Origin: a virus
Virus record (IMG/VR): IMGVR_UViG_3300042389_001858
Span: 1-56,007 of that record
Reading direction: 5' to 3' (one strand)
Length of the DNA stretch: 56,007 nt
Position 1 is the stretch's first letter. Each line of letters opens with the position of its first letter. Shown here piece by piece: positions 1-15,337 of this stretch. The position numbers were made by a program, and so were the translations under genes. Below the pieces are notes generated by a model. The model worked only from the letters and a program-made list of their open reading frames with translations. It was not told the origin of the DNA and searched no databases.

Positions 1-108
1 AGAAGGTAGTCTTTCGACTCCGCTTCGAGTTGGGACAGTGAAGGTGGCTTGGAATTCCTTTCCAACCCCAAATTGATCCTGTATGAATTGGAGATCCCGC
101 CTCCGCGA
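1..108. repeat. 108-bp direct repeat, copy A
   Basis: Bases 1-108 are identical to 1041-1148 and diverge at the next base; the repeat may extend left of the window. It holds the last 24 codons of a gene, a short spacer, and the first codons of a gene beginning MNWRSRLR. The right border falls inside the N-terminal tag codons. Confidence 0.97.
2..76 (+). CDS. 3' end of an upstream gene (partial), same C-terminus as the 333-residue protein
   Basis: The frame from base 2 reads 24 residues starting EGSLSTPLRVGT and ending SFPTPN, then TGA. This is identical to the C-terminus of the protein encoded at 115-1116, so the gene to the left is either a paralogue with a homogenised 3' end or the donor of a duplication. 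Function unknown. Only the tail of the gene lies in the window. Confidence 0.6.
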   Translation, partial: EGSLSTPLRVGTVKVAWNSFPTPN

Positions 109-1116: not shown

Positions 1117-1148
1117 TCCTGTATGAATTGGAGATCCCGCCTCCGCGA
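1041..1148. repeat. 108-bp direct repeat, copy B
   Basis: Identical to bases 1-108. It covers the last 25 codons of the 333-residue gene, the spacer and the first eight codons (MNWRSRLR) of the next gene. Here the tag continues in frame as ELAVRSGRAVEF. Confidence 0.97.
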
Positions 1149-1827
1149 ATTGGCCGTCCGTAGTGGGAGGGCGGTGGAGTTCTCCGTAGCTTGGGCGCGG
1201 CGGCTCAATGGGTTGTCGCCCGAGGCACGGCGGCGGTTGGGGGCGTTGAGGTCGCAGACGCGGCAGACGGGTGGGAAGTTGGGGCAGGGCGCGGATTTTC
1301 GTGTGTATGAATCCTTCACTCCGGGGCGCGGACGCACGGTGACAAAGACGCTGATCCCCGAGGCGCTCCCTGAGCGGGATCAAGTGATGGCGGCGGTGAA
1401 GAAGTCTTGGGGCGAGGCGGAGGCGTCCCCGGCTGGAAAATTCGCCGCCCTTCCGGCCGGTTGGCACAAGGCCGGTTATGTGCAGGATCGCATGCTCGAT
1501 CCGCAATACAAAAGCACTTTTAGAAAAGGGTATATCCATCCCGAGAGAAAAGAAAGGGTGGTCGGCTCTCGGTTTGCCGAAAAAATCTCAAGCGGGTTCG
1601 ATCGAGGTCGCGGTGCGGCCTACAATATGCCAATGGGAGCGAATGATTCCAGTTTGACCATAAGGAGCAGAGGCACCTACGAACGCCTGCGCCGCAAAGT
1701 CCAGATCGACGCCCACAACATCATGCTCGACCCCCGTAAACGGCGCTTGGTTTTGACCGATCCGCTGGGTTGGCAATCGTCGTCCACTCAGATCGGGGCG
1801 CTCACGCCCGGACCGGCGGTGCGTTGA
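1123..1827 (+). CDS. tagged protein with protein-kinase-like fold motifs, 234 aa
   Basis: Seen: an N-terminal tag (residues 6-20, LREL...AVEF) shared with other proteins of this phage; a glycine-rich loop GKLGQGADFRV (51-61); a candidate ATP lysine in VTKT (K75); a catalytic-loop-like QIDAHNIMLD (194-203); and LTDP (211-214) where kinases have DFG. Known: phage and bacterial small-molecule and protein kinases share G-loop, Lys, D..H..N and metal-binding Asp motifs in this order. Inference: a degenerate or compact kinase-like protein, possibly carried in the head because of the tag. The protein is shorter than a full kinase and the loop spacing is tight, so activity is uncertain. It could instead be a pseudokinase. 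Confidence 0.5.
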   Translation: MNWRSRLRELAVRSGRAVEFSVAWARRLNGLSPEARRRLGALRSQTRQTGGKLGQGADFRVYESFTPGRGRTVTKTLIPEALPERDQVMAAVKKSWGEAEASPAGKFAALPAGWHKAGYVQDRMLDPQYKSTFRKGYIHPERKERVVGSRFAEKISSGFDRGRGAAYNMPMGANDSSLTIRSRGTYERLRRKVQIDAHNIMLDPRKRRLVLTDPLGWQSSSTQIGALTPGPAVR

Positions 1828-1828
1828 C
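1824..1828 (+). promoter_or_regulatory. TTGAC start-associated motif (portal)
   Basis: TTGAC lies 17 nt before the portal ATG at 1846 and contains the TGA stop of the previous gene. There is no SD between them. Confidence 0.55.
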
Positions 1829-1845
1829 CAATCCCCGGTAAGCGT

Positions 1846-3570
1846 ATGAATTTTCTCGATCGGGCGGTTTCGTTTTTCAATCCCCAGGCAGGCGTCCAGC
1901 GGGCGTTTGCGCGGGAGAAGCTCAAGGCGTTTGGATACGATGCGGCGCATCCGGGCACGGCGCGGGGCGGGAGCGGGGGGCGGAACAAAAATGCGTCCTC
2001 GGAAACTTGGCGCTCCCAGCGGGATCGGGTGCTTCTCATGTGGGATGCGCGGGATGTGGTGAGGAATTTCGCGCTCCTGCGCGGCATCGTGGCCCGCATC
2101 GTGCAGTATGTGGCCGATACCGTGCAGTATGTGTCGCAGACGGGGGATGAGGAGATCGATTCGCTCTACCAGGATTATTTCCATGCGTGGTGCGAGCGGG
2201 CGGACATCACGGGGCGTCACCGCCTCGGCGATCTGGTGTGGATGCTGGTGTGGGCGATCATCGTGGATGGCGACCACGGGTGGCATATCGTTTCCGTGGA
2301 TGAGAATGGCAAGCAAGTGCCAAAAATCCAACCCATCGAGGCCGACCGCATCGGGGATCCGAACAGCCCGATCAACCCCGGCGAGGACAACAATATCGGC
2401 GGGATTTTTGTGGATGAGATGGGGCGTCCGCTGAGCTACAAAATCTTCAAGCGCGAACGCCGCACGGCGCAGTATTCTTTTGACCGCGAGGTTCCTGCGG
2501 ATCAATTCATCCACATTTTCGATCCGCAACGGGTGGATCAATATCGGGGCGTCTCGGCCTTGGCCACGGCGATCGCGCCCGCCCGCGATCTTTACGAGAT
2601 TTACCAGTTCGAGAAAACGGCGGCGAAGTGGCAGGCGGGCTACGCAGGGTTTGTGAAAACGCCCGATCCCACGCGCGGCGATGGGGGCGTTTCCGCTTGG
2701 AATGGCACGACTACCGGCAAGCCGGGTGCCTCGCCCATGGGCCTCATGGAAGTGGCCCCAGGAAAAATCCAACGCCTCGCGGCGGGCGAGGATATCCAAT
2801 TCGCCCCCGGCACGAGCCGTCCGGGCGGGGCGTTCATGGCGCTGGTGCAGGTGATGGTGCGCGAGATTTCCAGCGGGCTGAATATGCCGTATGGGTTCCT
2901 TTATGACATGACGGCGTTCTCGGGCCACACGGGGCGCATCGAGATCGCGCAGGCGATGCGCGGCATTCGCCGGATGCAAAAACTCGTCGGCGAGAGAGCA
3001 TTGAATCCCGTGCGGGATGCGGTGATCGGCTACGGCATCGGCATGGGCGAGTTGCCGCCGCATCCGCAATGGCGTAATGGCCGGTGGGGCTTCGGGCGTT
3101 CCCTCACGGGGGACTACGGGCACGATACCACGGCAAATCTCCAGATGCTTCAGAACGGCCTTGTCACGGCCAGCGATTTGATTTCCGAGACGGGGCAGAG
3201 TTTCGAGGAAGTGGTGAGGCGCAGCGCGAGCGAAGTGGCGTATATGCAACGGGTCGCCACCGAGACGGGAGTTCCGATCGAACTCTTCAACCAGCGGATT
3301 CCGAATCCCACGCAAGCCCTCGCCGCGATGGCCGAGCCGCCGCAACCCCCGCCGCCGGGCCTCGTCCCGCAAGGTATGGATGTGAAGCCGCTCTTGGAGT
3401 TGCTGAAAAATGTGGGCGAGGGGATCATTGATCGGGAGAGCGCGATCATCAACTTGATGAATCTCTACGGCGTGGAACGAATGGCGGCGGAAAAAATGGT
3501 GCCGGACGGGCCGGGGGAGAAGAAGGGTTTGACCGCGGAGGACGCGGAGAACGCGGAGCGTGGGAAATGA
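1846..3570 (+). CDS. portal protein, lambda GpB type
   Basis: The dodecameric portal forms the DNA channel at one head vertex and binds terminase and the head-tail connector. The 574-residue length and motifs match the lambda-family portal: an N-terminal arm, then VWMLVWAIIVDGDHGW in the clip/stem region, a DPQRVDQYRGVSALA block, and GGAFMALVQVMVREISSGL followed by a TAFSGHTGRIEIAQ block. The C-terminus is Pro-rich and ends in GLTAEDAENAERGK, a repeat-derived coding extension not typical of portals. The start is supported by TTGAC 17 nt upstream. The stop overlaps the next start (ATGA). Family assignment is firm. Confidence 0.93.
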   Translation: MNFLDRAVSFFNPQAGVQRAFAREKLKAFGYDAAHPGTARGGSGGRNKNASSETWRSQRDRVLLMWDARDVVRNFALLRGIVARIVQYVADTVQYVSQTGDEEIDSLYQDYFHAWCERADITGRHRLGDLVWMLVWAIIVDGDHGWHIVSVDENGKQVPKIQPIEADRIGDPNSPINPGEDNNIGGIFVDEMGRPLSYKIFKRERRTAQYSFDREVPADQFIHIFDPQRVDQYRGVSALATAIAPARDLYEIYQFEKTAAKWQAGYAGFVKTPDPTRGDGGVSAWNGTTTGKPGASPMGLMEVAPGKIQRLAAGEDIQFAPGTSRPGGAFMALVQVMVREISSGLNMPYGFLYDMTAFSGHTGRIEIAQAMRGIRRMQKLVGERALNPVRDAVIGYGIGMGELPPHPQWRNGRWGFGRSLTGDYGHDTTANLQMLQNGLVTASDLISETGQSFEEVVRRSASEVAYMQRVATETGVPIELFNQRIPNPTQALAAMAEPPQPPPPGLVPQGMDVKPLLELLKNVGEGIIDRESAIINLMNLYGVERMAAEKMVPDGPGEKKGLTAEDAENAERGK

Positions 3571-4544
3571 AACTTTCGGATACGGAAAAAGCGGTTTTCC
3601 GTCATTATTATCGCAAGCTCAAGAAGCTGACGCGCAAGGGCGGGCTTCGTGACGGAAAGGCTGAATCGCTTGGGATTGGCGGCGTTATGCCTGATATGGC
3701 GTGGAAGGATAAGGCAGCCGGGTTATTATGGCGGGGGGCAGGGCGGCAGGAAATTGAGAAACTGGCTGGGGATGGAAGATTTGTAAGCCAATGGTCGCAC
3801 GCGCTTGGAAAGTCCAGAACCTATACAGCAAGTCTTCCTCGCCGTGCTGCTGGGTATGCCGAGAGCAAATCCGACCCGCGAGTTTATGCTATTTCTCCAA
3901 CGGCATTCAAAAGATCCGATGAACGGGTTCGCCAAGTAAACCACTCTCCAAGCACCACGGCCCCGATACGCGGCGGCATTTTCCGGCATGAGGTTCGTGG
4001 CATTCTCAAGGGATCCGATGGCGGCGCGGACGAGTATGGTCGGAAAAAAGTGCGCTGGCGGCCAGCCTCTTTGGGCGATGTTCAGAATCGGAATTTCTCC
4101 GCCAAGCTCCGCATCAGGGCTCTATGTGCCAAGCTCCGCTTGGTCGAGTTTGGCTACACGAAGCCGGGGTTGCGGGCGCGGATCAAGGCGCGGATCATGG
4201 CGAGTTCCAAGGGCGGGCGTCCAGGCCAATGGAGTGCGCGGAAGGCTCAGCTTGTGGCGCAAGAGTATCGGGCCGAGGGCGGTGGCTACAAGGGCGGCAA
4301 GACGGAATCCCAGAAATCCCTCCGCAAGTGGACGCGGGAAAAGTGGCGCACGCGATCCGGCAAGCCCAGCACACAGGGAAGCGAGGCTACGGGCGAGCGA
4401 TACCTGCCCGACAAGGCGCACAAGAGCCTTTCGCCACAAGAGTATGGGGCCACGACTCGCGCCAAGCGGGAAGGATCGCGGCGCGGCGAGCAATTCGTGA
4501 GGCAGCCCGAGCGCATCGCCAAAAAAACGGCACGGCACCGATGA
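3567..4544 (+). CDS. tagged protein with DUF5872-like C-terminal domain, 325 aa
   Basis: Residues 1-175 are not recognised. A tag-like stretch FSAKLR...KLRLVEFGY occupies residues 177-197 and is followed at once by a conserved domain containing GGRPGQWSARKAQL, GGGYKGG, SLRKWTREKW and GERYLP..A.K.LS..EY. From memory this resembles the family Pfam calls DUF5872, found in phages, bacteria and large DNA viruses, function unknown. The protein is very basic. Cleavage after the VE of LVEF would release the domain alone, so I infer a tagged cargo protein. The start is coupled to the portal stop, and the stop overlaps the next gene. Confidence 0.7.
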   Translation: MKLSDTEKAVFRHYYRKLKKLTRKGGLRDGKAESLGIGGVMPDMAWKDKAAGLLWRGAGRQEIEKLAGDGRFVSQWSHALGKSRTYTASLPRRAAGYAESKSDPRVYAISPTAFKRSDERVRQVNHSPSTTAPIRGGIFRHEVRGILKGSDGGADEYGRKKVRWRPASLGDVQNRNFSAKLRIRALCAKLRLVEFGYTKPGLRARIKARIMASSKGGRPGQWSARKAQLVAQEYRAEGGGYKGGKTESQKSLRKWTREKWRTRSGKPSTQGSEATGERYLPDKAHKSLSPQEYGATTRAKREGSRRGEQFVRQPERIAKKTARHR

Positions 4545-4744
4545 GCGACCACGCCGACGAGTTGTATTTTTTGTTGAATGATGCGATCTCGTATCTGCAC
4601 CACCATGGGCACGGGGAAAAGGCCCGACAGATACAAAAGGATCGGGACAAGATTATGGAGAGCATTGAGTGGTTTCCAGCGCGCGGCAGCGAGGGCGGCT
4701 CGCCACTAAGTCGTGGCTCGGGGCGGGCGAGTAGGCGTTCGTAA
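4541..4744 (+). CDS. small hypothetical protein, 67 aa
   Basis: Starts at an ATGA overlap with the previous gene. The first 45 residues look protein-like: acidic and helical, with a His cluster YLHHHGHGE and a KDRDKIMESIEWF helix. The last 20 residues are Ser/Gly/Arg-rich and poor in order, so the real end may be altered by a frameshift. Family not recognised. Confidence 0.55.
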   Translation: MSDHADELYFLLNDAISYLHHHGHGEKARQIQKDRDKIMESIEWFPARGSEGGSPLSRGSGRASRRS

Positions 4745-4835
4745 GGACGGTCCGAGGCCCTTACTCGACGCGGTGCAAGCCGCGCTTTATCGAGGAAGCG
4801 CATCGAGCGGCCGAGCGACCTGGCCCGCGCGCTGG

Positions 4836-4840
4836 TTGAC
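4836..4840 (+). promoter_or_regulatory. TTGAC start-associated motif
   Basis: TTGAC lies 16 nt before a GTG at 4857. It is the main reason for choosing that GTG as a start. Confidence 0.45.
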
Positions 4841-4856
4841 TTTCGGGATATTCATC

Positions 4857-5084
4857 GTGAAAACACAATCCCTCTCAGCCAATCAATCGAAAAAGTTCAG
4901 CAAGACAATTCGCCTCCCCGAGGGGTGGGTGGGGCCGCGCGAGCGGCGGTGGTTTGTGGAGTTGAAGGCCGATATGGCGCGCGCCGAGCAATACTTTTGG
5001 CGACAAACTCCAGAGCGGCGGAAAGTCCAGAGGGAATACTTGAGGGGCAAGACTTGGGGGAATAACAACTTTTGCTTCAGTTGA
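4857..5084 (+). CDS. small basic hypothetical protein, 75 aa, GTG start
   Basis: The frame is open from further upstream (an ATG at 4713), but the upstream residues look less protein-like and TTGAC sits 16 nt before GTG 4857. From there it reads KTQSLSANQSKKF, then GWVGPRERRWFVELKADMARA and YFWRQTPERRKVQ, a basic helical protein rich in aromatic residues. The stop TGA is part of the next TTGAC motif (5081-5085). Another frame across 4745-5069 is also open, so coding here is somewhat ambiguous. Family not recognised. Confidence 0.5.
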   Translation: MKTQSLSANQSKKFSKTIRLPEGWVGPRERRWFVELKADMARAEQYFWRQTPERRKVQREYLRGKTWGNNNFCFS

Positions 5085-5085
5085 C
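5081..5085 (+). promoter_or_regulatory. TTGAC start-associated motif (1291-residue gene)
   Basis: TTGAC lies 15 nt before ATG 5101 and contains the TGA stop of the previous gene. Confidence 0.55.
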
Positions 5086-5100
5086 TGGAGTGTTGGCGGT

Positions 5101-8100
5101 ATGTCGCTGCCGCTGATTGAAAAAGCCTACGATTTATACAAGACAAAAAAGAAACGGCCCTGGGCGTTTAAGAAGGCCGCGGATTCTGCGAAACTGCTAA
5201 GCCCTGCGCAGAGTGCCCAGCTGTTCAAGTTGGCAAAAGGCATGAGGAAATCGGCAAATCCCGAGCTTTATCCCGAGCAGATGCGGTTGTTGACGGTGGG
5301 GCGCTCGGGTATGAAGTTGCGCGAATTTCGTTATTACCCCTACCCTGGCAATCCTTACGATAAGGATTTTGCCCAAGAGCGTGAAAAGGAACGGCGGCAC
5401 GGGCTGATCAAGGCCGGGTTGGTGGGGGCGGGCTTGCTGGGTGGCGGCGCGCTGGTGGGGCGCGGGTTATTTAGGGCGGGCGTAAGTGCTGCTGCGCGTC
5501 GTGCCGATGACTTGGCGCGGGAGGTTGATTTTCTGAAAACTGCGAAAAAGGCCGAGAAATTGGATGAGGTCGCCCCTGCCGCAAAGTCCCGCAAGCCGAT
5601 CAAAGTCGCCGCCACGCCTCCGCCCGCTCCGAAAACGACGCTGCCGCCGCCTCCGCCGCCAGCGCCTCCCGCCGCGGTGGATAAAAGCATCCAGGCTGAG
5701 GGGCGCAAGCGCGCGCCCGTGCAGACGAAGGCCATCGAGCAGTTGAAGGACAGCGGCCAGATCAGTCAGTCCGATGCTACCGCCGAAATCCAAGAGATCG
5801 TAGCCGGAGCAAAGCCTACGCGTAAACTCACTCCAAGGCAACAGGTTTTGGCAAAGCGGCAAGCGAAGGTCGCTAAATTCGCGTCTGCCCAATCGTCGGC
5901 TGCTCCTGCGCCCGCCGTTCCGAAGGCGCCCGCGCCTCCCAAGGCGAAGCCAAAAGCGGCGCCCGCGCCTGTTCCCGCCGCGCGCGCGAGTGATGAGTTT
6001 TGGGAGAAGGAGGGTCTTGGCAAGGTTCCGCTTACAGGCACGCCCGAGCAGAACGCCGCCCTGCGCAAAAAGTTGGAAGAGACTTATGCCGCCGGGGGAT
6101 TCAAGGGAAGGGTCAAGGGCGATGTGATCGATGATGTTCGTGCATCCCTGGCAAAAGCGGGTGAGTCAGCTGGAAAATCCGATTTTCCGCCGGGACTCAG
6201 CGAGGCGCTTCGGCAGGAGGCGAAGAAAAGCAACCCGCCCAAGGCTGCCAAAAAATCCAAGAAATCAAAAGCTGAGGATGATGATTTGGATGATCCGGGC
6301 GCCTCTCCTGAAGAGGCGGAATGGGAGGAGGCTCTTAATAAAAACCAAAAACCAGAGCCGAAATCCAAGTCAAAGGCGTCCAAGGCCCCCGCTAAAGGCG
6401 AGAAGCTTTCCTACGCAGAAAAAATCGCCGCCCGCGTCAAGGCGAAGCGCCAAAAGAAAAAAAATCTCGCCGACCGCCTACGCGGCATCCGGTATTTCAA
6501 TTTTCAGACCGACGAAGGCGGCATTCCTTTCACCGGCAAGGTGGCGAAAGACCGCTTCATTAAGCAAATTCGCGATCAGGACTTGCGCCGCCGCGATTCC
6601 AATCTGCTTCGTGCCGGTGCGGCGGGGGCTTTGGCCGGGGTGCTTTTCCGCGGCAGGCTTTCCATGGGCAGGCGCGCGCTGATTGGGGCGGGTTTGGGTG
6701 CCGGAGGAGTGATTGGCACGAGGGCGATCACTGATCGCACCCGCGATGTTTACGGCGAACGCAGCCACGAGGCCATGCGCGCCGAAGCCCTCCCGGCCAT
6801 TGCCGGACTCGGCACCGCCGGATGGCTCGCCACCCGCCGCATCCGCGGCCTGGCCGCAAAGTTTCGCGGGGTGAAGGAGTTTTCGATTCTCAATAAAATC
6901 TCCAACCTCACCGGCATGGCGCAAATCAAGGCCGGGCGCGAGGCTTTGGAGAAGGCGAAATCGAATAGGCAATTGAGAGATATTTATCGCGCCGATGCCA
7001 TCAAGCAGAATAAGTTCCCTTACAGAGATTCTGACCTTCAGTATGAGATCGAAAGTGGCATGAGGCATAGGGCTATTGCCAGAGGCACTTATGCTAAGTA
7101 TGATGTCCGGCGAGCCAGAAACCTCATCAACGAAGGCATCCGCCGCCGCAACATTTCCATCGGAGTCGGTGCGGGAGTTGCAGGTTTAGGCGCGGGGGCG
7201 GGGTATCTCGCCACGCGCAAGGAATCCAACCTCGCCGCGAAGCTGCGCGGCTTGAAAGAATTCGAGGACTACAAGCTCTACTACTTCAAGGGGCGCAACA
7301 CCGGCATCGCGGCCCGCAGTGCCGATGAGGCCCGGAAGAAGAAAAAGCGTGGCGGCGACGAGCTTGTGGCCGTGCGCACTCCGAACAAGACGGAACGCAG
7401 TCAGATGGCGCGAGGCATTTGGGTTCGCACCCGCCGCGATGGCAAAAGCCCCGGTCAATCCCGCTACGGCAAGGGGAGGGGACAAGGGCCAGCCCGCAAG
7501 AAAGAAATGTCCGCCAAATTTTTCGAGAAACGCGATAAGGAAAAAGGCGGGCTGAATCCCTATGTGGGCGCGGCGTTGTCGGGCTTCGGCAGCGGAGCGG
7601 CCTTGGGATCGCTGGCCCTGCTTCGGCGGGGTGCCACATTCCGCAGCGCGGCCAAGACGGCTGGAAAGCTCGGTCTGGCCTCGGCGGGAATCGTCGGCGG
7701 CGGAGCGTTGCTCGGCAGCAAGATCATCGGAAATCCCAGGGATGACGAAAGCGCGCCATTTACCAAGCGGGCCGCCATCGGCGGAGCCTTGGTGGGATCG
7801 GGCGCTGGATTGGCCGGTGCGCTCCTGCTTCGTCGGACCAAAGGCGGCGCGAGGGCGCTGGTCGGAGCATCCAAAAAAACCGAACCTTTTTCTCGCCCCG
7901 CCATGTGGCTTCGTAAAACGCCTCTCGCAGGCGCGGCGGGCATCGGCGCTCTCGGTGGTGCGCTCTACGGCGGGGCCATGGGCGCGGACGAAGGCCAGCA
8001 AGTCGATTCCATTCGCAATCTGCGAAAGGATTTGAAGAAGGAAATGTCCGCCCGTCTCCTTCGCGCGCGTCTGCGGCTGTTTGGTCGGGGGGATCAGGCG

Positions 8101-8976
8101 CGGTGGGATGCGCAGGGAACGAATGAAGATGCCCGATTTGCTAATACCGCCTGGGGGTGGGCTGTGGATCGCCCGATGTATATCCCGAGGCGCGACAAGC
8201 AGGGGCGTGTCGTCAAGGATCCGATCACAGGCGAAGCCATGCGCCAGCGTTGGGAGGCGAATACTCCGCAACTTTGGAATTCCGTAGCCCGCGAGGCGGG
8301 GCGCCAGCGCGTGAATGTGCAGCGCGGAGGCAGACTCTCGCGCGATGTTTTTGATGAAATGCGGGGCGCGCCCCGCCAGCGCGATGCCAGCGGGCGCATC
8401 AAAAAGCGCGAGTGGGAGAAAAGCTGGTTCCAGAATAAAGCCACGGAGATCGGGCTCACGGTAGCTGGATTGGGAGGGTTGGGGGCCATCCGCTACGCGA
8501 ACAACAATCCCGACACCAAGGCGGGCCGCGCCTGGCGCAATACCCAATCGAGTCTGCGCACCACCAAGGACAATCTCGCCGAGATCGGCTCGGCCATCAT
8601 GCGTGGAGCCACGAGCATCACCGCCAGGCGGCGGTTCTCCGCGAAATTGAGGAAACTTCGCGAGCTGGATGCTTTTGCCGAATACCAGGGATGGGATGTC
8701 CGCGATCCGCGAGGCCGCTCCGCCCGCGTCTTCGCGCCCGGCAGCCGCCGCCGCGAGCGCCGCCCCAAGGAGTGGCATGAAAAAACGGAAAACGAGCGCA
8801 AGCTCTGGAAAGCCGGATTGGTCGCCAGCGCGTTGGGTGGCGCGGGAGCAATGCTGGTTGGGCAACGCCTCGTCTCCGGGAAGTCGCTTGTGCCTTCGCG
8901 GTTTCTGCCGAAGAAGCCCGTGATCGATCCCGAAAAGGTGGTGACGGGCGTGAATTTCAAAAAAGGAGCCGCATGA
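5101..8976 (+). CDS. 1291-residue tag-repeat protein, possible internal-head polyprotein
   Basis: No known family recognised. Seen: seven tag-like motifs at about residues 71-76 (MKLREF), 455-466 (NLADRLRGIRYF), 584-594 (LAAKFRGVKEF), 711-721 (LAAKLRGLKEF), 803-809 (MSAKFFE), 982-994 (MSARLLRARLRLF) and 1179-1189 (FSAKLRKLREL). Between them lie about ten Gly/Ala-rich hydrophobic segments of membrane-spanning length, e.g. around 101-124, 690-705, 825-845 and 930-950. Residues 165-440 are a low-complexity Pro/Ala/Lys linker. The protein is strongly basic. Inference: a polyprotein or multi-segment ejection protein cut by the prohead protease at the LxE/VxE steps. It lies between portal and capsid genes. 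A structural pilot or membrane-pore protein is an alternative. Confidence 0.65.
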   Translation: MSLPLIEKAYDLYKTKKKRPWAFKKAADSAKLLSPAQSAQLFKLAKGMRKSANPELYPEQMRLLTVGRSGMKLREFRYYPYPGNPYDKDFAQEREKERRHGLIKAGLVGAGLLGGGALVGRGLFRAGVSAAARRADDLAREVDFLKTAKKAEKLDEVAPAAKSRKPIKVAATPPPAPKTTLPPPPPPAPPAAVDKSIQAEGRKRAPVQTKAIEQLKDSGQISQSDATAEIQEIVAGAKPTRKLTPRQQVLAKRQAKVAKFASAQSSAAPAPAVPKAPAPPKAKPKAAPAPVPAARASDEFWEKEGLGKVPLTGTPEQNAALRKKLEETYAAGGFKGRVKGDVIDDVRASLAKAGESAGKSDFPPGLSEALRQEAKKSNPPKAAKKSKKSKAEDDDLDDPGASPEEAEWEEALNKNQKPEPKSKSKASKAPAKGEKLSYAEKIAARVKAKRQKKKNLADRLRGIRYFNFQTDEGGIPFTGKVAKDRFIKQIRDQDLRRRDSNLLRAGAAGALAGVLFRGRLSMGRRALIGAGLGAGGVIGTRAITDRTRDVYGERSHEAMRAEALPAIAGLGTAGWLATRRIRGLAAKFRGVKEFSILNKISNLTGMAQIKAGREALEKAKSNRQLRDIYRADAIKQNKFPYRDSDLQYEIESGMRHRAIARGTYAKYDVRRARNLINEGIRRRNISIGVGAGVAGLGAGAGYLATRKESNLAAKLRGLKEFEDYKLYYFKGRNTGIAARSADEARKKKKRGGDELVAVRTPNKTERSQMARGIWVRTRRDGKSPGQSRYGKGRGQGPARKKEMSAKFFEKRDKEKGGLNPYVGAALSGFGSGAALGSLALLRRGATFRSAAKTAGKLGLASAGIVGGGALLGSKIIGNPRDDESAPFTKRAAIGGALVGSGAGLAGALLLRRTKGGARALVGASKKTEPFSRPAMWLRKTPLAGAAGIGALGGALYGGAMGADEGQQVDSIRNLRKDLKKEMSARLLRARLRLFGRGDQARWDAQGTNEDARFANTAWGWAVDRPMYIPRRDKQGRVVKDPITGEAMRQRWEANTPQLWNSVAREAGRQRVNVQRGGRLSRDVFDEMRGAPRQRDASGRIKKREWEKSWFQNKATEIGLTVAGLGGLGAIRYANNNPDTKAGRAWRNTQSSLRTTKDNLAEIGSAIMRGATSITARRRFSAKLRKLRELDAFAEYQGWDVRDPRGRSARVFAPGSRRRERRPKEWHEKTENERKLWKAGLVASALGGAGAMLVGQRLVSGKSLVPSRFLPKKPVIDPEKVVTGVNFKKGAA
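5290..5313 (+). promoter_or_regulatory. internal TTGAC + ATG: alternative start of the 1291-residue gene
   Basis: TTGAC at 5290-5294 is followed after 16 nt by an in-frame ATG at 5311, codon 71 of the larger ORF. The shorter product would begin MKLREF, i.e. with a tag at its extreme N-terminus as in the other tagged proteins. Both starts carry the motif, so either or both may be used. Confidence 0.5.
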
Positions 8977-9623
8977 CCGATCCCCGTCCCCGCAACAACC
9001 AGGGTCAATTCGCCCCGCAGGGCATGGACGGCATCGATGCCAACACCACATCCACGGCCTACAATCCGCAACTCATCGAGCAACGCAAACTCTCGCTGAT
9101 CGAAAAAATCCGCCGAATGCGCGGCGTGCGCAATGGCGTGGAGGAATCCGTGCCGCAGCAATTCTCCATGAAAACAAAACTCCGCCTGCGTGAACTGGCT
9201 CGCCAGACCTTTGATCCCTACGCTCCGCAACCCGCCCAACCTGGGCAGGGATCGCAGGATTTCCGCAATGCGGCGATCGGTATTGGCGCTTTGGGGGTGG
9301 GTGGCGGCGTGGCCTATGCCGGATGGCGCGGAGCGCAGGCCGCCAAGAGCGCGCAAGTGCTCACGGATGATGCGTTGAAAACCTCTGCCGAGGCTCGCAA
9401 AGCGGCTCGATCCGCCCGAGTCGCCGCCGCCCGCATGGGTCGCGCAGGCAAAGCAATCAAGACCCAACTCACCACTTTCCCGACATTCCGCAAAGCCGGT
9501 GGCGCAATCCGAAAGGCGCTCCGCTTCGAGGCTGACCTGGGGAGGTTGAGGGAACTCGCGGCCAGAAGCGAGCTGGCAAATGAAATGCGACGCCAGCGAA
9601 ACGCGGAGGCGAAGAAGAAATGA
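8973..9623 (+). CDS. tagged basic protein with Gly-rich hydrophobic segment, 216 aa
   Basis: Starts at an ATGA overlap with the 1291-residue gene. A tag-like stretch lies at residues 64-80 (FSMKTKLRLRELARQTF), a Gly-rich hydrophobic helix at about 98-120 (IGIGALGVGGGVAYAGW), then Ala/Arg/Lys-rich helices, and a second tag copy close to the C-terminus (188-206, GRLRELAARSELANEM). This repeats in miniature the tag-plus-glycine-helix unit of its neighbour. I infer an internal head protein processed by the protease. Not recognised as a named family. The stop overlaps the next gene. Confidence 0.7.
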   Translation: MTDPRPRNNQGQFAPQGMDGIDANTTSTAYNPQLIEQRKLSLIEKIRRMRGVRNGVEESVPQQFSMKTKLRLRELARQTFDPYAPQPAQPGQGSQDFRNAAIGIGALGVGGGVAYAGWRGAQAAKSAQVLTDDALKTSAEARKAARSARVAAARMGRAGKAIKTQLTTFPTFRKAGGAIRKALRFEADLGRLRELAARSELANEMRRQRNAEAKKK

Positions 9624-10633
9624 AAAAACAAACCTGGGCCTCGATCGCCCGCGATAGCGCGGAGAAGGCGCACAAGACCGAAGTGGATTCGCTCAAGGCG
9701 AAGCTCGCGCAATACGCGCAAACGGTTTCCGATCTGGAAAAGCAACTCGGCATCGCTCTCACGCTCGGCAAGGCGAAGGTGAAGTCGCGCGCCATGGAGG
9801 TTTCCATGCAGGACAAGGCCGAAGCCGTGGCCGTGGCCCTGCTCTCGGATGTCCACGCCGAGGAGGAAGTGACCAGCGCCTCCGTGAATGGCTTGAACGA
9901 ATACAGCCTCGCCATCGCCGAGGAGCGCATGGCGAAATTTTTCCGCACCACCGCCCGTCTCACCGAGATCGAGCGCGGCGGGGCTAAGATCGACACGCTC
10001 GTGCTCTGGCTTGGGGGCGATTTGTTCTCGGGAATGATCCATGAGGAACTCATGGAAACCTCCAAAAAAACGCCCACACAGATGATCCTCTGGCTGCAAG
10101 AGCGGCTCATGGAGGGCATCGCCACGCTGAAGCCGCATTTCGAGAGAATTTTGGTTCCCACCTCGTATGGCAACCACGGGCGCACGACCAAGAAGCCCCG
10201 TCACGCCACGGGGGCCGCGCACTCCTACGAGTGGCTCATGTATAAGATCCTCGAAGGCCGCTACGCCTCGGACAGCCAGGTGGAGTGGCAGGTGGCGGAT
10301 TCGTATTTCAACTATGTGAATCTTTACGGCAGGACGCTGCGGTTCCACCACGGGGACAATCTGAAATACAACGGGGGCATCGGCGATATTTCGATCAGCG
10401 TGAACAAGGCGATCGCTTCCTGGAACAAGGGCGCGAACCGTGCCGACCTCGATATTTTTGGGCACTGGCACCGGTATATGCAGCACTCGAACTGGCTCTG
10501 CAACGGATCCGTGATCGGATACAACGCCTTTGCCTTGAGTATCAAGGCTCCCGCAGATGAAGCGCCCTGTCAGACTTTCTTCCTCTACGATAAAAAGCGC
10601 GGGCGCACCGTCACCTCCCCGATTCTTCTGTGA
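9620..10633 (+). CDS. calcineurin-like metallophosphoesterase, 337 aa
   Basis: All five metal-binding blocks of the family are present in order: SDVH (76-79), GGD (132-134), GNH (184-186), HHGD (243-246) and GHWH (281-284). These enzymes use two metal ions to cleave phosphomono- or diesters. The N-terminal 60 residues form a coiled coil. The substrate cannot be told. It has no tag, unlike its neighbours. Metallophosphatases occur in phage genomes for DNA or nucleotide processing, but a place between head genes is unusual and may mean late expression or packaging. Starts at an ATGA overlap. Confidence 0.88.
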   Translation: MKKQTWASIARDSAEKAHKTEVDSLKAKLAQYAQTVSDLEKQLGIALTLGKAKVKSRAMEVSMQDKAEAVAVALLSDVHAEEEVTSASVNGLNEYSLAIAEERMAKFFRTTARLTEIERGGAKIDTLVLWLGGDLFSGMIHEELMETSKKTPTQMILWLQERLMEGIATLKPHFERILVPTSYGNHGRTTKKPRHATGAAHSYEWLMYKILEGRYASDSQVEWQVADSYFNYVNLYGRTLRFHHGDNLKYNGGIGDISISVNKAIASWNKGANRADLDIFGHWHRYMQHSNWLCNGSVIGYNAFALSIKAPADEAPCQTFFLYDKKRGRTVTSPILL

Positions 10634-10645
10634 ACCCACACGCCT

Positions 10646-11113
10646 ATGCCAGACTGGAAAAAACTCCTCGCCGATCAACAGCGCCGCAAATACTCAAACG
10701 ATCCCAACCGCCAATGGAGCACCTATTCCAGGCAGGGCTGGGAAAAGGCCGAGCGCATCGCCGAGGAGTTGGATTGCAATCCCAACCAAGTCGGTGTGCT
10801 TTTGAAGGACAGCATTCAAGCCAAGCTCATCGAGCGCGAGGAATTCATGATTTGGAACCGAGAGGCCGATCGTCTTGAGAAGGTGGTGGCCTTCCGGAAG
10901 GTTCGCCCCGGGCAGCAGGCTGCGGGCGCAAAGGCCAAGCCTGTAAAAATGCCAAAGCCGGCGGCAGGAATGCGGGTGCGCAGCCGGCGGGGCCACTTCG
11001 GGAAAATCAAGTCCATCTCGGGGTCGAAGTGTGAAATTGTTTGGGATTCGGGAACAATTACCAATCCGGGGCTGAAGGCCTTTAAAAAAAGAGACATCCT
11101 TGTGGAGCCATGA
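10646..11113 (+). CDS. putative winged-helix protein with C-terminal SH3/KOW-like domain, 155 aa
   Basis: Residues 30-85 read as helix-turn-helix with wing (WEKAERIAEELDCNPNQVG, then AKLIEREEFMIWNREADRL). After a Lys/Pro linker, the last 50 residues form short beta strands (AGMRVRSRRGHFGKIKSI, CEIVWDSGTITN) like an SH3 or KOW fold. This suggests nucleic-acid binding, perhaps a late regulator. Fold-level inference only; no family name can be given. Confidence 0.55.
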   Translation: MPDWKKLLADQQRRKYSNDPNRQWSTYSRQGWEKAERIAEELDCNPNQVGVLLKDSIQAKLIEREEFMIWNREADRLEKVVAFRKVRPGQQAAGAKAKPVKMPKPAAGMRVRSRRGHFGKIKSISGSKCEIVWDSGTITNPGLKAFKKRDILVEP

Positions 11114-11116
11114 GCC

Positions 11117-11386
11117 ATGAAAAAAAAGCAGGCGAGCGGCGGCAAAAAAGAAAAGGGACCGTGCGAGAATCGGCGGGAAATCCTCGAGGCAATCAAGAGC
11201 CAGCTTGCTGAGCATTTTGATGCCGGGGTGGGCATCGTGTGCTATGAGCAGTCTGCGGAAACGCATTTCTTCACCTTCCAGTTTGGAAACTCGTTTGCCG
11301 TGGAGGCGATGGGCAACAAGCTGCAAGAAACCATCTCCGAGTCTTCTGCGGATGATGATGGCGACGAGGAGGAGGAAGAGGATTAG
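11117..11386 (+). CDS. hypothetical protein with acidic tail, 89 aa
   Basis: Lys-rich start (MKKKQASGGKKEK), a compact middle with FFTFQFGNSFAVEAMG, and a C-terminus of almost only Asp and Glu (DDDGDEEEEED). It starts 3 nt after the previous stop and precedes the protease. Possibly a small chaperone or connector. Family not recognised. Confidence 0.6.
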   Translation: MKKKQASGGKKEKGPCENRREILEAIKSQLAEHFDAGVGIVCYEQSAETHFFTFQFGNSFAVEAMGNKLQETISESSADDDGDEEEEED

Positions 11387-11395
11387 CCGTTTTCG

Positions 11396-11400
11396 TTGAC
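11396..11400 (+). promoter_or_regulatory. TTGAC start-associated motif (protease)
   Basis: TTGAC lies 17 nt before ATG 11418. No SD is present. Confidence 0.55.
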
Positions 11401-11417
11401 GCGCCCCGGTATGGGGC

Positions 11418-12731
11418 ATGGCAGACCTTAAAGAATTTTTTGCTCCGTTCGTTACGCAGAAGGTCGATCCGTCCAACGGAATCATCTATGGCGTTTCGGT
11501 GATCACCAGCGGGATCAAGGCTCGCGGGCACGATCTCGAAGTCGATGCCACGACCCTCTCGCAAATCAAAGAATGCGCCGAAAAGCTCGGCACCGTTCCC
11601 GTAAAGTGGAACCACCGCACCGGCGCGGATGCCGTGGCCGGGTATCTCGAAAATTTCCGCATCGAGGGGGGGAAGCTCCTTGGTGATTGGCACCTTCTTA
11701 AGACCCACGCGCAATACGGCCAGGCTATTGAAATGGCGCAGCGCATGCCGCGCAATGTGGGCCTCTCCGCCGCGTTTATGGGCGAGGATGAAGTGAGCGG
11801 CGGTTCCAAAAAGGCCCGCTGTTCCGAACTGATTTCCGTGGATCTCGTGGCGCAACCCGCCGCGAACCCGAACGGGCTCTTCGAGGCGAAGCTCCCCTCC
11901 GATCCTACGGAACTTGCCTCACAAGTTGACACCTCCACTTCTAACCGTATGGATCAAAACACCAACACCAACACCAACGCAGCGGCGGCCGAAGAGCCTT
12001 CTATGAAGGATGTCCTGGCGGCCCTGAACAAGCTCACTGAGCAGGTTACTGCACAGCAAGAGTCCATCGCCGCACTGCAAGGTGCGGGCAATCAAGATGC
12101 CGAGGAGATTTCCCTCGAAGAGATCATGAATCTCTCCGACGAGGACATCGCCCAGCTTCTCCAGGCCGGTGAAATCACCGAAGAGGACGCCGCCGGGATC
12201 AAGGCTTATCAAGCCGAAGTCATCGCCGCCGTCGAAGCCGAAGAGGCTGGCGAAGGTCAAGAGGACAAGGGCGAACTCGCCACTGCTGGAGCCGCCGCCG
12301 ATGGCAGCGATAGCTCCTCCACCGGCTCATCTGCCGAACTTTCCGCACTTCAAAAGCAGGTCAAGGAACTCAGCGCCCGTTTCGAGCGCGAAGATGCCGC
12401 CGCCGAGAACGCCGAAATCGAGCACTACTTTTCCACCATCGAGGGCAACCTCACCGCGCTGGCCGAAGAGAAGGCCAAGCTCACCGAGTTGAGCGAAAAG
12501 CTCCAGGCCGAGAACGAGGCCCTGCGCCACGCGGTCAAGACCGGCACCCGTCCGCTGGCGTTCAGCGCTGAGGGTCGCGCCACCACTGGCAGCCAGGGCG
12601 AACTTCACGAGTTTGATGCGCGCGTGAAGGCCCACACCGACTCGGGCAAAACCCACGCCCAAGCGGTCATGCTGGCTCACAAAGAAAATCCCGAAGCCCA
12701 CCAAGACTGGATTCGGAACCAAAACAAGTAA
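11418..12731 (+). CDS. prohead protease fused to scaffold, 437 aa
   Basis: Residues 1-160 match the phage prohead serine protease fold: PVKWNHR with a candidate catalytic His (H66), GLSAAF with a candidate Ser (S117), and a later SVDLVAQPAANPNGLFEA strand typical of this group. Residues 178-437 are an acidic, Ala/Glu-rich coiled-coil scaffold. The N-terminus MADLKEF and a C-terminal GELHEFD (395-400) carry short tag/cleavage-like LKE and LHE steps, so self-processing is plausible. In lambda, C and Nu3 share this layout, with the scaffold made from an internal start. It acts in the prohead before DNA packaging. TTGAC lies upstream; the decoration and capsid genes follow. Confidence 0.88.
   Translation: MADLKEFFAPFVTQKVDPSNGIIYGVSVITSGIKARGHDLEVDATTLSQIKECAEKLGTVPVKWNHRTGADAVAGYLENFRIEGGKLLGDWHLLKTHAQYGQAIEMAQRMPRNVGLSAAFMGEDEVSGGSKKARCSELISVDLVAQPAANPNGLFEAKLPSDPTELASQVDTSTSNRMDQNTNTNTNAAAAEEPSMKDVLAALNKLTEQVTAQQESIAALQGAGNQDAEEISLEEIMNLSDEDIAQLLQAGEITEEDAAGIKAYQAEVIAAVEAEEAGEGQEDKGELATAGAAADGSDSSSTGSSAELSALQKQVKELSARFEREDAAAENAEIEHYFSTIEGNLTALAEEKAKLTELSEKLQAENEALRHAVKTGTRPLAFSAEGRATTGSQGELHEFDARVKAHTDSGKTHAQAVMLAHKENPEAHQDWIRNQNK
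11926..11930 (+). promoter_or_regulatory. internal TTGAC motif for nested scaffold start
   Basis: TTGAC lies inside the protease ORF, 18 nt before the in-frame ATG at 11949, right at the domain boundary. Confidence 0.5.
11949..12731 (+). CDS. nested scaffold protein, 260 aa, internal in-frame start
   Basis: An in-frame ATG (codon 178 of the fusion ORF) follows TTGAC by 18 nt. The product starts MDQNTNTNTN and consists of the acidic coiled-coil part only, with no protease residues. It would supply scaffold in excess of protease, as lambda Nu3 does within C. The LHE step at fusion residues 396-398 would let the protease trim the C-terminus. Support is the motif position and the lambda precedent; expression is not proven. 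Confidence 0.6.
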   Translation: MDQNTNTNTNAAAAEEPSMKDVLAALNKLTEQVTAQQESIAALQGAGNQDAEEISLEEIMNLSDEDIAQLLQAGEITEEDAAGIKAYQAEVIAAVEAEEAGEGQEDKGELATAGAAADGSDSSSTGSSAELSALQKQVKELSARFEREDAAAENAEIEHYFSTIEGNLTALAEEKAKLTELSEKLQAENEALRHAVKTGTRPLAFSAEGRATTGSQGELHEFDARVKAHTDSGKTHAQAVMLAHKENPEAHQDWIRNQNK

Positions 12732-12749
12732 CCAAGGAGAAAAAATACC

Positions 12750-13106
12750 ATGAATTTCAACAATGTTGTTTCGCTCCCCGCCGCCGCTGATTTGCGTGGC
12801 AAGGAGCACACCGCCGTCAGGCTCACCGCAACCGGCGTCAATATCGCCGGAGCCTCCGATCGGGTCATCGGCACCGTCATTCGCGGAGCCAATACCGGCG
12901 ATGCGGCGGATGTGTTTTTGAAGGCCGAGGGCCTTCGCTATGTCCGCGTCGGCAATGCCACTGCAATCGCGATTGCAGACGAACTCGAGCAGGCCGCCAA
13001 TGGCGAATATGTCAAGAAGACCACAGGGGCGACCGCCGCTCTCGCGCTCGAGGCGGCTCCTGCCAACAGCAACGGCGGCGGAATGATCCGCGCCATCCTG
13101 CTGTAA
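12750..13106 (+). CDS. capsid decoration (cement) protein, 118 aa
   Basis: A small beta-rich, Ala/Gly-rich protein between scaffold and capsid genes, the place of lambda D-type or DUF2190-type decoration proteins that stabilise the expanded shell. The sequence reads MNFNNVVSLPAAADLRGKEH, then strands and NGGGMIRAILL at the end. It has one of the few true SD sites in the late region (AAGGAG, about 9 nt before ATG), consistent with high expression. Confidence 0.7.
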   Translation: MNFNNVVSLPAAADLRGKEHTAVRLTATGVNIAGASDRVIGTVIRGANTGDAADVFLKAEGLRYVRVGNATAIAIADELEQAANGEYVKKTTGATAALALEAAPANSNGGGMIRAILL

Positions 13107-13136
13107 CGATCACCACAACATCAAGGACCAACAACC

Positions 13137-14096
13137 ATGCCTTACAATACCACAGATTCCGTTCCTCGGCAGGATATCAGCACTCTCCTCATGGAGGCTG
13201 TCCACCAGGAGAAACACTACATCGCCCCCATGCTTCTGCCCATCTACGGCAGCGAGCGCGAGGTCGGTCGCTATCCGAAATTCACGATCGGCAAGTGCGA
13301 GCTTCTCAAGCGCGAGAGCCAGAAGCGCGGAGCCACCGGCACTTACAACGAGAGCGAAGAACTCTTCGAATGGGACAGCTACCAGACCGCTGAATACGGC
13401 CACGAGAAACGCATCGATGATGTCGTGCGCAAGCAAATGCGCGACTTCTTCGACGCGGAAATGGTCACGGCCAAGTTCTGCTCGAACAAGCTGATGCTGG
13501 ATTACGAAGTGGAGGCGGCTACCGCCCTCTACAATCCCTCAACCTTCACCGCCACCTCGGCGGGCACCGCCTACACCGAGGCGAACCTCGACACCATGGA
13601 TGTCCCTGCGGATATCAATGCGCTCATCGAGTCGCTCACCCTCGTCGGCGAAGAACCGAACACGATGGTCCTGAGTCTCCCGCTCTTCAACCGCATCAAG
13701 CGCTCGAAGAAGCTCCAGACCTACCTCTACGGCCACCTGAACACCACGCAGGGCGGCTCGAACATCACCAGCCAGATCATTGCCGACGCCTTTGGCATCG
13801 CCAATGTCATCGTCGCCAAGAAGAGCCACGACAACGCCATCAAAGGCAAAACCAATGTCGTGCCCGTCTGGTCGAACAACTACATCTGGATCGGCGATGT
13901 GCAGGGCGGCGACTTCATGAACGGCGGCGCTGGCCGCACGATCATCTGGGATGCCGACTCCGAAGGCGGTCTCTTCACCTCGGATCAATACCGCGACGAA
14001 GCCCGCCGCGGCGACAAGATCCGCGTGCGCAGCAACCGCGTGATCAAGATCATCAACCCGAATTCGGCCCGTCTCATCACGACGAACTGGGCCTAA
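13137..14096 (+). CDS. major capsid protein, HK97 fold, 319 aa
   Basis: The shell protein. Position after the decoration gene, length and composition fit. Marks include LLMEAVHQEKHYIAPMLLPI in the N-arm, a WDSYQTAEYGHEKRIDD segment, a helix with NTMVLSLPLFNRIKRSKKL (spine/P-domain) and a C-terminal GDKIRVRSNRVIKIIN strand. The N-arm LLME step could be a protease site (LxE), but this is not sure. An AAGGA stretch lies 15 nt upstream of the ATG. Confidence 0.88.
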   Translation: MPYNTTDSVPRQDISTLLMEAVHQEKHYIAPMLLPIYGSEREVGRYPKFTIGKCELLKRESQKRGATGTYNESEELFEWDSYQTAEYGHEKRIDDVVRKQMRDFFDAEMVTAKFCSNKLMLDYEVEAATALYNPSTFTATSAGTAYTEANLDTMDVPADINALIESLTLVGEEPNTMVLSLPLFNRIKRSKKLQTYLYGHLNTTQGGSNITSQIIADAFGIANVIVAKKSHDNAIKGKTNVVPVWSNNYIWIGDVQGGDFMNGGAGRTIIWDADSEGGLFTSDQYRDEARRGDKIRVRSNRVIKIINPNSARLITTNWA

Positions 14097-14102
14097 CCGG
14101 AT

Positions 14103-14140
14103 GGAGGGGGCCGCTTAGCCGGGCTGCGGCGGCTCCCTCC
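14103..14140 (+). terminator. GC-rich hairpin after the capsid gene
   Basis: GGAGGG (14103-14108) pairs with CCCTCC (14135-14140), and GCCGC (14110-14114) with GCGGC (14126-14130). There is no T-run, so it could be an RNA processing or attenuation structure rather than a terminator. Confidence 0.4.
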
Positions 14141-14152
14141 CCACTCTTTCAC

Positions 14153-14226
14153 CGCAGGATAGAGAAATGGTATCTCACAAGGCCCATAACCTTGGGTTTC
14201 GGGTTCAACTCCCGATCCTGCTACCA
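14153..14226 (+). tRNA. tRNA-Met-type (anticodon CAT), with encoded CCA
   Basis: All four arms fold: acceptor 2-7/66-71, D stem GAGA/TCTC, anticodon stem CAAGG/CCTTG, T stem TCGGG/CCCGA with loop TTCAACT, discriminator A and CCA at 14224-14226. The anticodon loop is CCCATAA, so the anticodon is CAT (Met, or Ile if lysidine-modified). Odd points: C at position 33 where nearly all tRNAs have U; a C1.U72 mismatch; and A11:U24, an initiator-like purine-pyrimidine order. Only two of the three initiator G:C anticodon-stem pairs are present. It lies between the capsid gene and a terminator. Confidence 0.85.
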
Positions 14227-14245
14227 CCTTCCACACCACAACCGC

Positions 14246-14280
14246 TGGCAGACCGGTCCCGCAAGTCTGCCATTTTTTTT
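14246..14280 (+). terminator. Rho-independent terminator after tRNA
   Basis: TGGCAGAC (14246-14253) pairs perfectly with GTCTGCCA (14265-14272) across an 11-nt loop, followed by eight T. The T-run ends directly at the ATG of the next gene (14281), leaving no room for an SD. Readthrough or antitermination would be needed to express that gene from upstream. Confidence 0.85.
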
Positions 14281-14799
14281 ATGAAGAAACTCGACCTTAA
14301 GACCAACCTCCGCGAACTCGCGGCACGCTCCGAAAAACTCAAGGAATTCGCCATGGTGCGAGCCGCCGATGGCCGCTTCATCGAAGTGGACGAGGAGGAT
14401 GCGGGCATGAGTGCAGGCACGGCGATCAAAGCCGGAGCCGGAGCTGCCGCCTTGGGTGGCGCAGGCTACGGAGCCTACCGTGGCCATCAGGCAATCATGG
14501 GCAAATACGGCACTCGCGGCTTGCTCGAAAACATCGATCCCAAGCTCCCTGCCGCCTACGCCAAGACTTCCGCCGCAGGCACCGCCGCCGCTTCGCCGAT
14601 GCAGGCCTACCGCTCCGCCGCCACGGATCTCGGCAACACCATTTCCAGCCGCGCCAGCCAAGGCTTGGCCGCCGGCAAAACGGCTTATGCCCGCCTCGGC
14701 GACCGCGCCACAGCGGCAGCCAAATACCCTGGCTTCACGCTCGGCCGCATCGGCCGCGCCATCCGCAAGGGCCTCGGCGCAGCGCTCAAGCTCCGCTGA
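14281..14799 (+). CDS. tagged protein with Gly-rich hydrophobic segment, 172 aa
   Basis: N-terminal tag at residues 7-23 (KTNLRELAARSEKLKEF), then AMVRAADGRFIEVDEED, a Gly/Ala hydrophobic helix at about 47-66 and a basic helical C-terminus. Same plan as the 216-residue protein at 8973 and units of the 1291-residue protein. The frame is open further upstream into the tRNA, but ATG 14281 places the tag at the N-terminus. There is no ribosome-binding site: the terminator T-run abuts the start. Inferred internal head protein. Confidence 0.7.
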   Translation: MKKLDLKTNLRELAARSEKLKEFAMVRAADGRFIEVDEEDAGMSAGTAIKAGAGAAALGGAGYGAYRGHQAIMGKYGTRGLLENIDPKLPAAYAKTSAAGTAAASPMQAYRSAATDLGNTISSRASQGLAAGKTAYARLGDRATAAAKYPGFTLGRIGRAIRKGLGAALKLR

Positions 14800-14802
14800 T
14801 CC

Positions 14803-15012
14803 ATGAACCTTAAACTCCAACTCCGCGAACTCGCCGCCCGCTCCGAGCGGGTGGTGGAGCTGGGTGCTGGCGCAAATATTGCGAATCTTATGCCCACCAA
14901 TGCAGACAGGGCGGCTGCCCTGCCTAAGGCTGCGGCTGCTGATAAAAAATTGGCCGATATTAAAAAGGGGCTTCTCGAGCGAATCGCGCAGAATCAGACG
15001 CAAAAGAAATAA
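14803..15012 (+). CDS. small tagged protein, 69 aa
   Basis: The first 20 residues (MNLKLQLRELAARSERVVEL) are the clearest form of the tag. After it comes GAGANIANLMPTNAD, then a Lys/Ala helix ending TQKK. Cleavage after VVE would leave a basic peptide of about 50 residues. It starts 3 nt after the previous stop. The tag DNA is very similar to that of the next gene, which suggests recent duplication of the tag. The mature part is unlike its neighbour. Confidence 0.75.
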   Translation: MNLKLQLRELAARSERVVELGAGANIANLMPTNADRAAALPKAAAADKKLADIKKGLLERIAQNQTQKK

Positions 15013-15019
15013 TTTGCCC

Positions 15020-15337
15020 ATGAACCTCAAAACTCAACTCCGCGAACTCGCCGCCCGCTCGCAGCGGGTGGTGGAACTGGCGCGTGGGGATTTTGCGATC
15101 CCGGCCATGAAGAAGCTTCTCAAAAAAGGCATCGGCAACGGGGGCGACCCTGTTTCGATCGCGGAGATCGGCTCGTCTGGAACCACGGTTCCTTCCTTGC
15201 GCGGCAATGCAGCCAATGTCCGCCGCGCCTTGAATAAATTCTGGGAAAGCCCGCATTCCATGGCCGAGGCCGAGGGATTGATGCGCGGAAACCGCAAATG
15301 GGCCGCGCAGACGATCCGCCAGGCGCGCAGGCGTTAA
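15020..15337 (+). CDS. small tagged basic protein, 105 aa
   Basis: Tag MNLKTQLRELAARSQRVVEL (1-20), then ARGDFAIPAMKKLLKK and a basic, helical C-terminus ending RQARRR. Starts 7 nt after the previous stop. The mature part differs from that of the preceding gene although the tags are nearly the same, as expected for a tag joined to different cargoes. It is followed by a strong terminator, so it ends the operon. Confidence 0.75.
   Translation: MNLKTQLRELAARSQRVVELARGDFAIPAMKKLLKKGIGNGGDPVSIAEIGSSGTTVPSLRGNAANVRRALNKFWESPHSMAEAEGLMRGNRKWAAQTIRQARRR

Follow-up and report, generated by a model that had tools for sequence, protein, structure and literature searches.

In phage T4, the prohead protease gp21 cleaves behind (L/I)xE. 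It degrades the scaffold, takes the capsid-targeting sequence (CTS) off the internal proteins and carries LIE-9 near its own start (PMC9026906; PMC9958956). We analyzed the virus record IMGVR_UViG_3300042389_001858 in its entirety (56,007 bases; the window), in which a short peptide, here called the tag, recurs in proteins encoded around the head genes. As with the T4 CTS, several otherwise unrelated proteins carry one short N-terminal peptide, an (L/I)xE-type cut would be expected, the motif occurs near the N terminus of the protease, and similar sites are present in the scaffold. In contrast to T4, the window phage is a siphophage with a lambda-type portal, most tag copies are internal between polyprotein modules, and F or L follows the E. 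The resemblance is one of arrangement rather than of demonstrated membership in the T4 family. We consider the tag a probable T4-CTS-like signal for head targeting and maturation cleavage (probability roughly 0.64), the roles in packaging, cleavage and ejection and the functions of the attached proteins (cargo) being those that we infer.

Polyvalent proteins are phage proteins that combine several domains, among them kinase, GNAT, metallopeptidase and others of the effector type, and Verrucomicrobia prophage kinases with adjacent cassette-like open reading frames (ORFs) have been described (Iyer et al. 2017, PMC5512222). Relatives of the window phage likewise hold several effector-type domains (GNAT-like, HExxH, DUF5872 and others) in single ORFs; in contrast, a repeated targeting or cleavage tag was not found in the searched passages of that paper, which proposes release by embedded peptidases. 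The giant myoviruses phiKZ and SPN3US come close to what is proposed for the window phage, since the propeptides of several of their head proteins are cleaved behind a short xE motif, but these propeptides are mostly long, the motif is of the AxE type, and no multi-tag polyprotein was found in the available text of PMC5694885 and PMC10052503. DarA, Hdf and DdrB of the myovirus P1 are head-packaged proteins acting on the host, some of them cut by the prohead protease; no common short tag was found reported for them in the accessible sections of PMC12810830. Andromedavirus (Bacillus phage Finn) has a homologous protease and the same order of portal, protease, small head protein and capsid, but nothing like the window's block of tagged cargo separates portal from protease in its annotated regions. 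In a search of open-licence papers, no siphophage was found for which a tag of this kind is described, and the new part is its use in polyproteins, of which this literature likewise yielded no description.

The long form of the tag is LRELAARSERVVE followed by F or L and the short form is (N)LSAKLRLRE[F/L], the final ten columns being common to both; LRELAARSERVVEF, NLSAKLRLREF and KNLADRLRGIRYF are examples of tag peptides. The tagged ORFs of the window are as follows.

1123..1827, + strand: tagged ORF; tag LRELAVRSGRAVE followed by F at residues 7-19 (DNA 1141-1179), then kinase-like cargo
3567..4544, + strand: two-module ORF; cargo in residues 1 to about 176, tag FSAKLRIRALCAKLRLVEF at residues 177-195 (DNA 4095-4151), DUF5872-type cargo in residues 196-325
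5101..8976, + strand: multi-tag polyprotein of 1291 aa, strongly basic, with two transmembrane-like segments; tags at DNA 5308-5325, 6466-6498, 6850-6879, 7231-7260 and 8635-8664, and a weak one at 8041-8076
8973..9623, + strand: ORF of the 8973 family with two tags, KTKLRLREL at residues 66-75 (DNA 9168-9197) and DLGRLRELAARSE at residues 188-203 (DNA 9534-9581)
14281..14799, + strand: tagged ORF; N-terminal LRELAARSEKLKE followed by F at residues 10-22 (DNA 14308-14346), Gly/Ala-rich cargo
14803..15012, + strand: tagged ORF; N-terminal LRELAARSERVVE followed by L at residues 7-19 (DNA 14821-14859)
15020..15337, + strand: tagged ORF; N-terminal LRELAARSQRVVE followed by L at residues 7-19 (DNA 15038-15076)

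An earlier sequence-only reading of the window had claimed the tag in the ORFs at 1123, 3567, 8973 (twice), 14281, 14803 and 15020, and every copy was found in place. The longest tagged ORF, 5101-8976, had been overlooked; it contains at least four strong copies (13-mers at residues 454, 582, 709 and 1177) and two weaker ones, with the letters LAAKFRGVKEF, LAAKLRGLKEF, SAKLRKLREL, LADRLRGIRYF and KLREF, and the weaker LLRARLRLF. The same reading had called the tag N-terminal, which is true of several ORFs, but the majority of copies lie inside long ORFs, where they stand between modules.

A position-specific scoring matrix (PSSM) of 13 columns was trained on contigs other than the window and those close to it, and each window protein was compared with 1000 shuffles. 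The ORFs at 1123, 5101, 14281, 14803 and 15020 each gave p=0.001. Scores were weaker for 3567 (p=0.003) and 8973 (p=0.012), and relatives bear the canonical tag at the positions of these weak copies. The tape-measure-like protein at 18944 scored 12.4 bits with the PSSM and was treated as background. An iterative search of the fetched relatives recovered 116 distinct copies (78 non-redundant) with the same 10-column core. Tags are concentrated around the portal, protease and capsid genes, with 69 in 42,988 aa as compared with 2 in 24,407 aa of tail genes (Fisher p=2e-11). When 2.9 million viral contigs were scanned for SAKLRLRE[FL], with arginine codons restricted to CGN, 16 contigs were returned, all previously recovered through portal, capsid or protease similarity; the short-form tag is confined to this phage clade. 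An ordinary domain shared with unrelated proteins was rejected on this viral-contig scan, all 16 contigs belonging to the clade.

The tag joins unrelated head-region proteins and travels with different cargoes, as had been suggested; both the profile search in relatives and module swaps between genes bear this out. Among 84 tagged proteins, we collected local matches of at least 50% identity ending inside both proteins. Homology ended at most 15 residues from a tag in 256 of 554 distinct cases (random mean 77, maximum 100 in 500 runs), some proteins coming from overlapping or closely related loci and the ends not all being independent. One exchanged module of the window is the following.

6850..7260, + strand: module between two ORF 5101 tags (residues 591-725), 82% identical to residues 80-212 of L005:4700

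The gene L005:4700 is a different one, of the 8973 family, whose members in relatives have additional modules between the tags. The HExxH module GLLGHPL... is a gene of its own after a long-form tag in L019 and L024 and after a short-form tag in L025, and an internal module in L015-L018, so one cargo can stand alone behind its own tag or form part of a multi-tag ORF. Upstream of the portal gene, an identical N-terminal tag precedes kinase-like cargo in some phages and unrelated ARVQSV... cargo in others. The cargo of ORF 15020 is homologous to modules within multi-tag ORFs of L027, L030 and L004, and the best relatives of ORF 14803 align over the tag alone (22 aa, 86%). The DUF5872-type domain starts at GYTKPG right after the tag in window ORF 3567 and in L027, the upstream modules differing; in marine podophages this domain is free-standing and in two pieces, starting near YTKP. 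Single-linkage clustering placed 189 of 292 modules in one cluster, and evidence was drawn from the smaller clusters only. The evidence for modular cargo is strong, while that for head targeting and cleavage is fair and indirect. Where a GNAT-like module comes first in its ORF (L029 4819, L019 8636), the tag has shrunk to M[RK]EF, which looks as though the start codon took the place of the tag's last leucine.

The core of the tag is also present in the phage's own protease/scaffold protein.

11418..12731, + strand: head maturation protease fused to scaffold, with putative catalytic H66 and S117; core motif as LKEF (N terminus), VKELSARFER and LTEL (scaffold half) and LHEF (near the C terminus)

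This protein is homologous to annotated head maturation proteases of Andromedavirus (tblastn E 3e-3; hhalign 95.4%, E 1.8e-8). H66 and S117, a putative catalytic pair, are invariant in 10 relatives and align with H61 and S106, which are conserved in the Bacillus proteases. LKEF and LHEF had been claimed near the ends of the protease ORF, and they are indeed there, as MADLKEF at the start and GELHEF near the end. In the relatives, the start has LKEF or MKEF in 9/10, and [LVI][HT]EF stands near the C terminus in 10/10. The best match of the scaffold half to the long tag was always VKELSARFER or a variant of it (p 0.0025-0.046 each, the tests not being independent), and the tag may therefore imitate a scaffold segment. 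Comparison of the protease with PDB profiles gave chance matches only, and Pfam and NCBIfam gave nothing useful. Its AlphaFold model had a predicted local distance difference test (pLDDT) score of 53, with the protease domain below 50, too poor to search; the scaffold region was predicted as a long helix.

If the tag is a head-targeting and cleavage signal, it would attach to the protease/scaffold core during prohead assembly through its amphipathic basic part (L-S-A-K-L-R or L-R-E-L-A-A-R-S) and bring the protein joined to it inside. Once activated, the prohead protease would cleave the tag at its conserved [LV]xE[F/L] end and break down the scaffold at sites of this kind. Cargo modules would be freed as individual internal proteins and reach the host together with the DNA, and the multi-tag ORFs would be head polyproteins assembled from exchangeable modules. 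A signal like that of T4 predicts a shared peptide, varied cargoes, clade restriction and a core motif in the phage's own protease and scaffold. These were all found, and the T4-like targeting and processing proposed in the sequence-only reading is thus partly supported; the strict (L/V)xE cut that went with it is not.

Several observations weigh against targeting combined with cleavage after E. The residue is present at the presumed cut in 49/50 non-redundant tags outside the 5101-type ORF and in just 11/31 within it, where F, N, Y or L replaces it and the final F/L is retained; the PSSM itself favours E and F, which biases the E and F/L counts upward. Strict cleavage after (L/V)xE is not supported by these 5101-type tags, and the scissile bond is uncertain given this difference. 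A cut after F/L instead of after E is possible. The 5101-type tags lacking E would either serve targeting only or be cut differently, at F/L-x with E preferred before it. Relative L055 has the letters LRPGMIFF and LRPGMIAF at its tags, and V is also common at P3 of the tag. A clear tag is seen in neither portal nor capsid, and the signal therefore does not extend to every head protein.

In relatives with 35-41% protease identity, the upstream part of the tag differs, as in LRPGMIEF, which is repeated in L050. Across a small sample of eight distant or intermediate contigs, [LIVM]xEF occurred 19 times in cargo genes (3.5 expected) and 11 times in tail genes (9.2 expected). This enrichment with changed upstream letters is what would be predicted for a signal changing with its reader. 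In L044, L055 and L061, repeated 8-mers were about as frequent as in shuffled sequence, and we therefore argue for a separate tag code only for L050 and, weakly, for others.

Among the other explanations, the tag could be a docking motif only, binding scaffold or capsid and never cut, with the multi-tag ORFs entering the head as long multidomain polyvalent proteins. The loss of E in 20/31 5101-type tags that keep the remainder of the tag would agree with this, as would the virion RNA polymerase (vRNAP) of N4, which is packaged uncleaved (PMC5512222). However, E is kept in nearly all tags elsewhere, the protease itself begins with the [LV]xE[FL] core and has it again in the scaffold part, and the modules also occur separately with their own tags, which makes their release plausible; targeting without cleavage is thus unlikely, if still credible. 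Autoproteolysis is a further option, in which the tags would be processing sites not for the prohead protease but for HExxH zinc-metallopeptidase modules in the same polypeptides. Such modules do lie between tags in many relatives, and PMC5512222 proposes this role for the metallopeptidases of polyvalent proteins. Yet the window phage retains its tags with no HExxH match in its tagged ORFs, and the motif is present in the protease/scaffold ORF too, which leaves processing by metallopeptidases very improbable.

The finding that modules and stretches of homology end at tags could also point to a DNA-level repeat, such as an insertion element or recombination hot spot, translated by chance and with no role for the peptide. 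Against this, SAKLRLRE[FL] is encoded by 20 different DNA spellings, and the short-form window tags share about as many codons as chance predicts (22, with 20.9 expected), which argues for selection on the peptide and not on the DNA. The copies are always in frame, and a six-frame PSSM scan of the window found no match above 13 bits outside the tagged ORFs (3567 included). A DNA repeat is largely refuted by this synonymous divergence and is scarcely credible. The four long-form window copies have more codons in common than expected (32 compared with 19.9), so some of them are recent duplicates. Finally, a short motif rich in Leu, Arg and Glu, taken together with a scaffold region predicted as a long helix, might reflect ordinary amphipathic or coiled-coil similarity among basic proteins with no common function. 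The significant leave-out shuffle tests, the near absence of the tag from tail genes and its clade-limited occurrence in the contig scan make helix similarity quite improbable.

A broader form of the targeting-and-cleavage reading has, in our estimate, about an even chance of being correct. One peptide, read by the phage's own protease/scaffold, would be both an N-terminal head signal and a polyprotein separator, an "address-and-cut" code; it would provide a plug-in platform, with effector modules passing from gene to gene and from phage to phage, and the code would diverge with the protease in distant relatives. If so, a single peptide of 10-15 residues labels what an entire phage clade injects into its hosts, unidentified head cargo becomes recognisable by sequence alone, and the payload of injected proteins is swappable. 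The T4 targeting principle would then reach siphophages, in the form of cleavable polyproteins, and the shuffling and release of polyvalent-protein effector domains would be accounted for.

Cargo in relatives includes HExxH metallopeptidase-like, GNAT-like (best Pfam E 0.0012, below cut-off), DUF5872 and other domains; the cargo repertoire is that of polyvalent proteins (PMC5512222). A Pfam search of the tagged window ORFs found no polyvalent-type domain except DUF5872 in ORF 3567 (PF19197, E 9.4e-6, slightly below cut-off), which also matched phrog_17747/14910. The cargo of ORF 1123 had been called kinase-like. It does have kinase-like motifs (G-loop LGQGADFRVYE, GYVQDRM, DAHNIMLD..LTDP) and a weak PHROG kinase match (E 0.0097), but neither profile nor fold confirmed the label: no kinase match was found in Pfam or PDB, where the profile search gave chance matches only, and the AlphaFold model (pLDDT 34) was too poor for a structure search. 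The conserved Q in GYVQDRM would fit the reduced kinases of Verrucomicrobia prophages described in PMC5512222. The membrane-active cargo also proposed earlier finds a counterpart in the two transmembrane-like segments of ORF 5101, but in nothing beyond them. A tblastn search of 50,697 phage records gave no match for the kinase-like or the 5101 cargo.

The head genes of the window comprise, besides the protease/scaffold fusion, three untagged genes.

1846..3570, + strand: portal protein of the lambda family (PF05136, E 1.1e-51)
12750..13106, + strand: small head protein in the decoration/DUF2190 position, proposed from its placement between protease and capsid as in Andromedavirus
13137..14096, + strand: major capsid protein (phrog_1005, E 8.9e-30)

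The head genes are followed by tail genes and an integrase-like ORF on the minus strand, as judged by eye. Relatives of the protease/scaffold in metagenome-assembled genomes were from Spartobacteria (82% identical), Planctomycetia (57%) and Verrucomicrobiales (37%), and the host is therefore probably a member of Verrucomicrobia or a neighbouring group. The capsid protein has a possible cut site, LLMEA (LxE-A), at about residues 17-21; near relatives conserve it and distant ones have similar letters there. A tRNA-Met (cat) at 14153-14226 separates the capsid gene from the next tagged ORF downstream. Within the tagged block, an untagged calcineurin-like phosphoesterase is encoded at 9620-10633 (PF00149, E 0.0011, just under cut-off) and has a homologue in L009 (53% identical). 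An exact 108-nucleotide direct repeat (window 1-108 = 1041-1148) flanks ORF 115-1116, which has no relative among all fetched loci, and ends within the tag of ORF 1123; it could have arisen by tandem duplication or where the assembly joined the contig end. The tail-fibre-like ORF at 46482-49580 contains near-identical tandem repeats with QTDWNATTGLASIANKPTIPAAQ.

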